37,698 bases of DNA from an uncultured Saprospiraceae bacterium. Its GTDB lineage: Bacteria; Bacteroidota; Bacteroidia; Chitinophagales; Saprospiraceae. Below the pieces are notes generated by a model that saw only the letters and a program-made list of their open reading frames with translations, was not told the DNA's origin and made no database searches. Position numbers and translations under genes: made by a program. Where the stretch lies: the NCBI GenBank assembly GCA_938015925.1, contig CALLVY010000537.1:1-37698 (forward strand), given 5' to 3'. Shown in pieces: positions 34,718 to 37,420 of the stretch (its first letter is position 1; every line of letters begins with the position of its first letter).

Positions 34718-35284
34718 TTATTGCCCCAACCATTCTCGAAACCCCTTGGTCTTTGCACGACTAATCTGTAGTGCCATCACCGGTCCTTGTTTTAGGTTGA
34801 CTTGAATTCGGCCTTTGGAGTAGGTTTGGATTTTTTCAATGGCATCGATGTGAACGAGGTATTTGCGGTTGATGCGGAAAAAAGAATCAGGGTTTAAAAC
34901 TTTCTCCAGATCATCAAGGGTAAAGTCGATTACAAAATTGCGCCCTTGGGAATTGGTCATAAGGGTATTAGAATCTGCGCTATAAAAAAAGTTGATTTCC
35001 TTGGTGGGAATAGAATGAATGGTGTTGTTGATTTTTATAAAGAAGCGAGATTTATAATTGGGCTTTAGTAAATTAAGTAAAGCTTTTAGTGTTTCGGGAT
35101 CGAGATAGGGAGTCGTTGTGACCTTTGTCTGTGGTTGGAGGTTTAGAAGTTTTTGCATCGCAAAACTCAAGTCCCTTTGGGAGAGTGGTTTGAGGATATA
35201 ATCGAGGCTATTGAACTTAAAAGCCTGGATCGCAAATTTGTCGAAAGCGGTAACAAAGATTACGGGGCAAGAGATTAAATTCTC
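34718..35284 (-). pseudogene. 5'-truncated LytTR-family response regulator (C-terminal part of REC plus intact LytTR domain)
   Basis: In-frame reading beyond the listed ORF: *(35285-35287) ENLISCPVIFVTAFDKFAIQAFKFNSLDYILKPLSQRDLSFAMQKLLNLQPQTK..., then LytTR KINNTIHSIPTKEINFFYSADSNTLMTNSQGRNFVIDFTLDDLEKVLNPDSFFRINRKYLVHIDAIEKIQTYSKGRIQVNLKQG. The REC part carrying the phospho-acceptor Asp is missing. Confidence 0.85.
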
Positions 35285-35412: not shown

Positions 35413-35598
35413 ATGAAAAAGATTAAATTTGACAGCCGACTGGAAGCTATAGACTGGATTGCTCAGCAAGTAGAAGAGGAGGGACAATTTGAGGTCTTGA
35501 GAGAACAATTGAATTTCAATTTTATCTATACCGAAACTTATTATCTGGACTTAAAGGGCGAACTCGAGGAAGTCGTTTTACTTCGAGATGAAAAATAA
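35413..35598 (+). CDS. Small acidic hypothetical protein (61 aa)
   Basis: ATG-initiated ORF MKKIKFDSRLEAIDWIAQQVEEEGQFEVLREQLNFNFIYTETYYLDLKGELEEVVLLRDEK followed by a clear terminator. Confidence 0.6.
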   Translation: MKKIKFDSRLEAIDWIAQQVEEEGQFEVLREQLNFNFIYTETYYLDLKGELEEVVLLRDEK

Positions 35599-35645: not shown

Positions 35646-35684
35646 AGCTTTTAAGGTGTATTATGCATCTTAAAAGCTTTTTTT
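35646..35684 (+). terminator. Intrinsic terminator after the 61-aa ORF
   Basis: AGCTTTTAAGGTG ... CATCTTAAAAGCT stem (one G.T) followed by TTTTTT. Confidence 0.88.
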
Positions 35685-35815
35685 GTTTAGGGCATATTTA
35701 AAATTTATTTTAGGCAATAGCATTTTAAACATAGCATCTATTCAGCCTTTAAGGCTGCGGGAAGCAGGTTCCAAAATCAGAGGCATTGTTTGTAGTGTTG
35801 ATAGTACTTGGTAGT

Positions 35816-35844
35816 GGCCAGAGGCCTAATGTCATCAACTTAGG
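35816..35844 (+). repeat. Left copy of inverted repeat GGCCAGAGGCC-TAATG-TCATCAACTTAGG
   Basis: Imperfect inverted counterpart of 35952..35980 (TAAGTTGAT, CATT and GGCC blocks conserved). Confidence 0.7.
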
Positions 35845-35901
35845 AAGCACACTACTTTTTTACTTTCATCAAGAATGAATAAGACAAAGCATTTATGGGT
35901 G

Positions 35902-35934
35902 ACCCAGGATGCCGCTTTGAGCGGCTTCCTGGGT
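35902..35934. repeat. Near-perfect hairpin ACCCAGGA-T-GCCGCT-TTG-AGCGGC-T-TCCTGGGT
   Basis: 14 base pairs with a single T/T internal mismatch and a 3-nt loop. Confidence 0.85.
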
Positions 35935-35951
35935 TTTCAAAGAAAACAACG

Positions 35952-35980
35952 CTTAAGTTGATACCATTCGGCCAGAGGCC
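35952..35980 (+). repeat. Right copy of inverted repeat CTTAAGTTGAT-ACCATTC-GGCCAGAGGCC
   Basis: See 35816..35844; also contains the GGCC-AGA-GGCC mini-palindrome. Confidence 0.7.
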
Positions 35981-35999
35981 AGGAATCCGATTCGGTTAA

Positions 36000-36068
36000 A
36001 ATGCAATAGCATTTACCGAGCATCCGCAGATTTTTTTTTACCCTTGGCTCGGTGAATGTTATTGCATT
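36000..36068 (+). repeat. 22-bp inverted repeat with a 25-nt loop
   Basis: AATGCAATAGCATTTACCGAGC (36000-36021) vs GCTCGGTGAATGTTATTGCATT (36047-36068); 20 Watson-Crick pairs plus 2 G.U pairs in + strand RNA. Confidence 0.85.
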
Positions 36069-36169
36069 CCATCCGGGATGGCTATCGGCACCATTTCCCT
36101 TCCCGCTATTTACAAAGCTTTCATTCGTGCTGAATGCTTACAGATGCTTTTTAGAAAGGCGACATAAAA

Positions 36170-36267
36170 AAAGGGCTTTACCGCAGGTAAAACCCCTTTA
36201 AAAAGGTATGGTTATGGCTGGACTCGAGAAACGTATGGCGATTCCTGATGAGCCCAGATTTTTTTTT
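36170..36267 (+). other. Two further serial hairpins, the second terminator-like
   Basis: AAAGGGCTTTACC-GCA-GGTAAAACCCCTTT (36170-36199), then CTGGACTC...GAGCCCAG (36218-36257, one mismatch) followed by ATTTTTTTTTC. Confidence 0.5.
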
Positions 36268-36505
36268 CGTTATTTATAACTGTAAGATAGATAGAAAGCA
36301 ATTCGCGGCCCTTTTTTTTCGACGAGTACCCATCATTTGACCGATTAATAAAAAGACGATCCATCTACTGCTAATGTTACAGGCGTGTCTTGAAGTATTT
36401 TGCCAATTCGAAAATTAGAGCATTCTACCAACAGCTACGCAAAGGAACTCATTGTTCCTTCATTAATAAAGAGGCATTTTGGGTGAAAAGGTTGCCTGCT
36501 CTGAT

Positions 36506-37420
36506 TTATTTTTCTTTGGTAATTTTTTGGAGGGCTCGGGTGAGGTCTTCCTGCCGCGTTTGGATGATGAATTCTATCCGTCGATTTTGACCTTGGCCTT
36601 CTCGGGTTTCATTAGAAGCGCGTGGCGCAAATTCCCCCTTCCCGGCTGCGAGTACTTGATTGGATCCAAGGCCATGGTCTTCGGTGAGTAATCTGGAGAT
36701 TAAAGCGGCGCGGACTGCGCTGACGGTCCAGTTGTCTTTATAACCTTTATTGCGAGGTGGTTTATTATCGGTATGACCAAGGACCATTACATTCATACTG
36801 GGATACTTTTGTAAAGTATTGGCAATGCCGCCAAGTACCTGTTGCGATCGGGTGGTGACAGAGGTAGTTGTTTTAGCTTTAAAAAGAAGACTTTCTGATA
36901 CAATAACTTTTACATGTAAGTTGCTGGTATTGATCGTGTATTGATCGGTCGGTAAGGTGCCTAAAGCAATGCGAAGGTCATTGGCCAAAGTTCCCAAAGT
37001 GGTGAGGTCTTTTTCTAGCTTGGCATCTACCTGACTGAGTAGATTTTGCAACCTGGAAACTTCTTGCTTTAGGGAAGACAATTCCTGGCTGAGGCTTTGA
37101 GAAGTTGTTTGAGATTTCAAGCCCTGGTTTTTCATTTGCTGCTTTAAATCTTCAATCCTGCCTTCGAGTTTGTCTTGCATCGCGACTAAGGCATTATTTT
37201 CTCCTTTGCGTTCGGCCACATTTAGTCGCAGATTGATATTGCTATCTCGGCATTCTTGCAATGCGCTAGTCCAGTAAAGCGTTTTGTCTTGCAATTCCGC
37301 TTGATAAGTTGCGCTTGTTTTTTGCAAAGCTTCAATGTGCTTTTTTTTGCTGACGCAGGAAGAAAGTAGAAAGAGGAAAAAAAATATAAAATAGGTTTGT
37401 GGTAGTTTCAGTAATTGCAT
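36506..37420 (-). CDS. OmpA-family lipoprotein with coiled-coil spacer
   Basis: Lipobox LLSSCVSKKK; long coiled coil; OmpA motif NVMVLGHTDNKPPRNKGYKDNWTVSAVRAALISRLLTEDHGLGSNQVLAAGKGEFAPRASNETREGQGQNRRIEFII. Confidence 0.92.
   Translation of the reverse strand: MQLLKLPQTYFIFFFLFLLSSCVSKKKHIEALQKTSATYQAELQDKTLYWTSALQECRDSNINLRLNVAERKGENNALVAMQDKLEGRIEDLKQQMKNQGLKSQTTSQSLSQELSSLKQEVSRLQNLLSQVDAKLEKDLTTLGTLANDLRIALGTLPTDQYTINTSNLHVKVIVSESLLFKAKTTTSVTTRSQQVLGGIANTLQKYPSMNVMVLGHTDNKPPRNKGYKDNWTVSAVRAALISRLLTEDHGLGSNQVLAAGKGEFAPRASNETREGQGQNRRIEFIIQTRQEDLTRALQKITKEK

Follow-up and report, generated by a model that had tools for sequence, protein, structure and literature searches.

Pairings of REPINs with RAYT transposases are already known (PMC3733652, PMC6006769), and Bacteroidetes have been placed in a GT[AG]G-REP subclass (PMC6006769). 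Two families of insertion sequences provide further points of reference. Within the IS4 family, the IS4 subgroup is defined by -AATR--------WTW ends and 10-13-bp duplications (PMC2266710, Table 1). For IS66 elements, 8-bp duplications have been described as characteristic (PMC11946415), and ISDge4, a member of the ISBst12 group of this family, combines GTGACTACTCAGCA / GTAACTGCTCAGCA ends with a duplication of 8 bp (PMC12898284). Insertion of an IS4-family element at REP axes also has a precedent, in the ISRm22 copies found in Sinorhizobium REPs (Tobes and Pareja 2006; PMC1525189), while the BOX, RUP and SPRITE repeats of Streptococcus pneumoniae are small, in some cases terminator-like, and inserted into each other (PMC10969869).

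Here we analyzed an intergenic, hairpin-dense interval (35740-36270) within a 37,698-nucleotide stretch of DNA from an uncultured Saprospiraceae bacterium, hereafter the window. An earlier note, made from the sequence alone, had offered two readings: a composite repeat of the REP/BIME/MITE class, or a multi-stem ncRNA with its own terminator. Our results favor the former, in a specific form: a REPIN with a putative cognate RAYT in the same genome (element B) lies within one MITE (element C) and is split by another (element A). We assign a probability of roughly 0.9 to the interval being three nested, intergenic mobile repeats without genes, rather than a structured RNA gene.

Layout of the interval

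Own-genome searches covered assembly G000 (7.5 Mb in 905 contigs, 78% complete); the copy numbers given below for A and B are lower bounds, and the scored copies are part of the candidate matches. Searching with the interval returned dozens of matches that resolved into two distinct families, one spanning 35823-35973 (A) and the other consisting of 35738-35826 fused straight to 35970-36145 (B plus the arms outside it). Because copies of the second family join these two segments directly, A must interrupt B in the window; elsewhere in the genome, A and B occur as separate dispersed families, with B uninterrupted. Many REPINs lie within C and A splits B, and the nesting order is thus C, then B, then A. 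A second locus with the identical combined layout of all layers was not found, and positions 36146-36270 fall outside every repeat when own-genome copies are compared.

In the copy count proposed in the earlier note, approximately 25 A loci and >35 B loci were present in the own genome, and no copy of either in 59 relatives, the same genus included. Matches in relatives were restricted to the small ORF at 35413-35598 (in G001, G017 and G021) and a 36-base stretch (in G045), a distribution on which A and B look lineage-specific. No similar phage DNA was found for the interval, and tRNA/tmRNA and tandem-array searches returned nothing relevant.

The absence of a convincing ORF was borne out, as no ORF of ≥80 aa covers the interval. 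Copies of A and B are placed downstream of genes, as with REPs and many MITEs; among copies with genes on both sides, none lies between divergent genes (0/14 for A, 0/12 for B), and only one A/B copy overlaps an ORF of ≥100 aa. The whole of 35740-36270 folds 4.1 sd below shuffles, and the most stable 80-nt segment of the entire 37.7-kb window falls within it. Greater stability than shuffled sequence holds for four individual hairpins as well as for the whole stretch, but not for the last hairpin. Two hairpins had been described in 36170-36267; the first (36169-36199, z -2.9) withstands this comparison, but the second (36205-36270, z +1.2) is no more stable than shuffled sequence, with 183 of 200 shuffles folding equally well.

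Three nested elements

The outermost element, C (35734-36141, plus strand), was delimited by alignment of own-genome copies and by 8-bp duplications in other copies, and measures ~254 nt when A and a single target duplication are left out of the count. By copy alignment, its left arm outside the REPIN spans 35735-35810 and contains the CAGCCTTTAAGGCTG hairpin, previously reported as CAGCCTT-T-AAGGCTG at 35743-35757 and indeed present (z -2.8); the right arm, supported by copy alignment and duplications, spans 36095-36141. Many B copies have these arms in common, ending in the family motif GTAA(C/G)TATTCAG, and the window copy ends in GCATCTATTCAG... / ...CTGAATGCTTAC. Exact 8-bp duplications are found at the predicted ends of C in L041 (TAGATTTC), L049 (GTCTTTTT) and L066 (AAATAAAA), and two further ones, in L004 and L051, lie within 2-3 nt of the predicted ends; the chance of an 8-bp duplication is ~2e-5 per fixed site. 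Given GTAA-type ends and 8-bp duplications like those of ISDge4 and IS66 elements, C is best read as a putative IS66/ISBst12-type MITE carrying the REPIN. It would presumably have been moved by a transposase of this type; a search of the 78% complete own-genome assembly for an IS66 transposase (PF03050) found none. In the window, C has degenerate ends and lacks a clear target duplication, while the duplication around A is perfect, indicating that C is older than the A insertion. Own-genome matches never included C arms without the REPIN core, and so C and the REPIN may have amplified as one unit.

Element B (35811-36094, plus strand) comprises two inverted GTAG-tagged REPs with inner stems, now split by A, and was identified through its copies and a RAYT gene on contig C860 of G000. 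The 5' REP (35811-35826) consists of GTAG (35811-35814) followed by the TGGCCAGAGGCC palindrome, and the 3' REP arm is mostly deleted in the window, with GGCACC in place of GGCCTCTGGCCACTACC. Full copies read GTAG-TGGCCAGAGGCC ... GGCCTCTGGCCA-CTAC, and CGGTTAAAATGCAATAGCATTTACCGAGC / GCTCGGTGAATGCTATTGCATTCC form their inner stem. The 22-bp hairpin already recognized at 36000-36068 is real (z -6.2) and is the inner REPIN stem, AATGCAATAGCATTTACCGAGC / GCTCGGTGAATGTTATTGCATT, seen in full B copies; the adjoining CCATCC-G-GGATGG palindrome (36069-36081) is likewise present. B occupies >35 intergenic loci in its own genome, a lower bound, from which 18 full inverted REP pairs were extracted, and the tetranucleotide preceding the REPs is GTAG in 28/43 cases and GCAG in 4 more. 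Internal changes in individual REPINs comprise a triplication (L062) and deletions (L066, L051 and L058), and the REPIN of L058 also lies between direct repeats of ~39 bp.

The search for RAYT/Y1 transposases suggested in the earlier note was productive. The sole Y1 transposase found in the genome (C860:7221-7949, minus strand) is an open frame of 243 aa with an MSNHLHLIA motif, is classified as a RAYT by NCBIfam NF047646 (92.3 bits, cut-off 80), and lies between matching REPs: identical GGCCAGAGGCC REPs and whole REPINs flank it on both sides. We consider it the likely cognate of B; the gene is present and its activity is presumed. A PDB sequence search with this RAYT gave no meaningful match. 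The REPINs beside this gene are more diverged and have no C arms. Related genomes hold other RAYT genes (L291, L295, L297 and L298), which have their own, different GTAG REP families on their flanks, and RAYT-associated REPs in such genomes, for example GTAGCGGCGGCCTTTAGCCGCC and its variants, reach nine copies around one RAYT.

These data bear on the alternative that fares best, in which C and B are a single palindromic MITE moved by an IS66-type transposase alone, with the RAYT locus capturing the core later. It would account for the failure to find C arms lacking the REPIN core and for the presence of that core in all long copies with exact duplications. However, paired hairpins and a GTAG tetranucleotide are characteristic of RAYTs (PMC3733652, PMC6006769), the REPINs beside the RAYT are diverged and free of C arms, and some RAYTs in related genomes have flanking GTAG REPs of their own, such that we regard a single element as unlikely and a REPIN within a distinct MITE as the preferred reading.

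Element A (35827-35969, plus strand) is a candidate non-autonomous IS4-type MITE of 143 nt, TAATGTCATCAACTTAGG...GCTTAAGTTGATACCATTC, defined by its copies, boundaries and duplications. It lacks a transposase gene and occurs in multiple near-identical copies, with at least ~25 loci in the own genome and a closest copy that is 97% identical. Copy and flank alignment revealed sharp ends, (G/T)AATGTCATYAACTTAGG...GCTTAAGTTGATACCATTC, and flanking 11-mers that agree at 9-11 of 11 positions in 15/16 complete copies, with a mean of 9.9/11 as against 5.3/11 in a control pairing left and right flanks from different copies. In the window the target duplication, GGCCAGAGGCC (35816-35826 and 35970-35980), is perfect at 11/11, and the 5' REP palindrome is split by A precisely at its axis. 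An outer inverted repeat had been described at 35816-35844 / 35952-35980, and the pairing exists, but not as a single inverted repeat: it combines the terminal inverted repeats of A (35827-35844 / 35952-35969) with an 11-bp self-complementary direct repeat, GGCCAGAGGCC, whose near self-complementarity is all that makes it look inverted. The outer stem thus exists because the ends of a transposon form it. The hairpin that it encloses (35902-35934), ACCCAGGATGCCGCTTTGAGCGGCTTCCTGGGT followed by TTTT, is real (z -7.2), terminator-like and kept in all aligned A copies.

The 11-mers duplicated by A are mostly palindromic (for example GGCTTCGAGCC, AGCTTGAAGCT and ATCTTGAAGGT), and rejoining the flanks of A produces strong hairpins at the five clearest sites (L003, L006, L008, L020 and L022; z -5 to -8). 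Several of these hairpins are terminator-like, and the remaining sites are weaker. About half of the targets fall in terminator-like hairpins and about half in just weak palindromes. Elsewhere in the genome, L016 (G000:C729, ~1460-1645) appears to hold a tandem of two A elements with one 11-bp duplication in common (TACCATTC-AGCTCGAAGCC-GAATGTC), and a second MITE family of ~110 bp with the same IS4-type ends (L076, L105, L114 and L125) has palindromic or duplicated targets.

The ends of A, GAATG-TCATCAAC-TTA (= GAATGTCATCAACTTA), match the IS4-subgroup consensus, and its 11-bp duplication falls within the 10-13 bp of that subgroup. Ends of the form AATGTCATCAACTTAAG also bound full elements of 1.6-1.9 kb in Clostridium hydrogenum (L192), C. 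sartagoforme (L204) and L230, which encode transposases of ~450 aa. The one from L192 reaches 158 bits with NF033592, the model for the IS4 family (cut-off 115), and the full Clostridium IS4 element with A-type ends measures 1589 bp. An autonomous partner with A ends was not found in the own genome by ends, PF01609 or NF033592 (assembly 78% complete, 905 contigs), and an NF033592 search of 99 genomes of the bacterial family recovered no IS4 elements other than ones whose inner ends differ; L255, for instance, has AATGTCGTTTAGTTAAG. Small MITEs with AATGTCATCAACTTAAG ends occur in Clostridia, methanogen MAGs and other Saprospiraceae members, mostly in palindromes; judged by ends and insertion sites, this is a very widespread and apparently hairpin-targeting family. 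Examples from Clostridia and methanogen (Methanovirga) MAGs include L133, L140, L148, L179, L181, L185 and L226, among others.

Collectively, these observations suggest a history in which C, the outermost MITE, carried B, whose two inverse GTAG palindromes could fold, when single-stranded, into hairpins cut by the RAYT. A inserted later into the palindrome axis of the 5' REP, duplicating 11 bp, as the perfect duplication and the A-free REPINs at other loci show. A appears to favor hairpin loops, many of them terminator-like, and the terminator-like hairpin it brings may replace the one it splits. A more elaborate proposal, which we hold tentatively and as somewhat less probable than its contrary, is that the locus represents a dual-system repeat: a REPIN within an IS66-type MITE could be amplified by the transposase of the latter and still be recognized by the RAYT, with a hairpin-seeking IS4-type MITE landing in REP and terminator hairpins and supplying a replacement terminator.

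RNA and terminator readings, and the neighboring genes

The reading of the interval as a multi-stem ncRNA with its own terminator, kept for an RNA function, draws on its pronounced folding, on a nearby T-run at its end, and on the fact that such repeats can be transcribed. However, the interval splits into independently dispersed repeats whose combined layout recurs at no other locus found, and its last hairpin is at chance level. Rfam searches at gathering and relaxed thresholds yielded only chance-level matches, for example to mir-458 with a score far short of the one required for gathering. Covariation analysis of aligned copies, proposed in the earlier note, revealed almost no compensatory change, with 0/43 pairs covarying in A and 3/45 in B, where the covariation term was unfavorable; conserved pairs in both elements reflect recent copying. 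We consider an RNA gene highly improbable, and on the nested mobile-repeat reading the hairpins are therefore transposase recognition and target structures. Equally improbable is an origin as ordinary intergenic terminators or attenuators, repeated through recombination and not transposition, for although copies lie downstream of genes, with 0/26 classifiable copies between divergent genes, and A has a terminator-like hairpin, the defined ends, the duplications fixed at two different lengths (11 and 8 bp) and the agreement with element families argue for transposition, and the target duplications already contradict it.

The hairpin at 36169-36199 is unique sequence, not repeat. Read on the minus strand, it has the form of an intrinsic terminator, and it probably ends transcription of the OmpA-family gene at 36506-37420 (minus strand). 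At 34718-35279 (minus strand) lies a LytTR response-regulator gene that is missing most of the receiver domain; receiver likeness ends near 35280, and the gene is probably truncated. A 61-aa ORF at 35413-35598 (plus strand) has its own strong terminator (35646-35678), DNA that is 70-74% identical in G001, G017 and G021, and no Pfam match; it is a predicted conserved small protein.

Comparison with known systems

The locus brings three unrelated transposition systems (IS66-type, RAYT and IS4-type) together at one site, where the order of events can be read from target duplications, and adds a GTAG REPIN/RAYT pair for this Bacteroidota lineage. The hairpin-loop MITE family could be used to ask whether its transposase reads DNA hairpins or just GGC-N5-GCC sequence. 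For annotation, the locus serves as a warning that dense hairpins in intergenic DNA need not mean an RNA gene.

As in described REPIN/RAYT systems (GTAG REPs; REPtrons), B has short GTAG palindromes in inverse pairs, at high copy and in intergenic positions, together with one RAYT gene that has the same REPs on both flanks. Unlike those systems, its spacer is long and contains inner AATGC...GCATT stems, many of its copies lie inside a MITE, and its host belongs to Bacteroidota, for which PMC3733652 lists no GTAG repeats. A shares with the IS4 subgroup and its MITEs the -AATR--------WTW ends, 11-bp duplications and palindromic targets, but has neither a transposase gene of its own nor a partner found in the assembly. 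C resembles ISDge4 of the ISBst12 group in its GTAACTxxTCAGC-like ends and 8-bp duplications; unlike IS66/ISBst12 elements, it has no transposase gene and a REPIN as its interior, and PF03050 was not found in the assembly. In placing an IS4-family element at a REP palindrome axis, A parallels ISRm22, which, however, is a complete IS4Sa-subgroup IS, whereas A is a 143-nt IS4-subgroup MITE in an unrelated REP. The pneumococcal BOX, RUP and SPRITE repeats, with which the likeness is drawn from the published description, differ in sequence and layout. Each layer is of a known kind; less usual is their combination, a REPIN within an IS66-type MITE with a putative hairpin-seeking IS4-type MITE inside.
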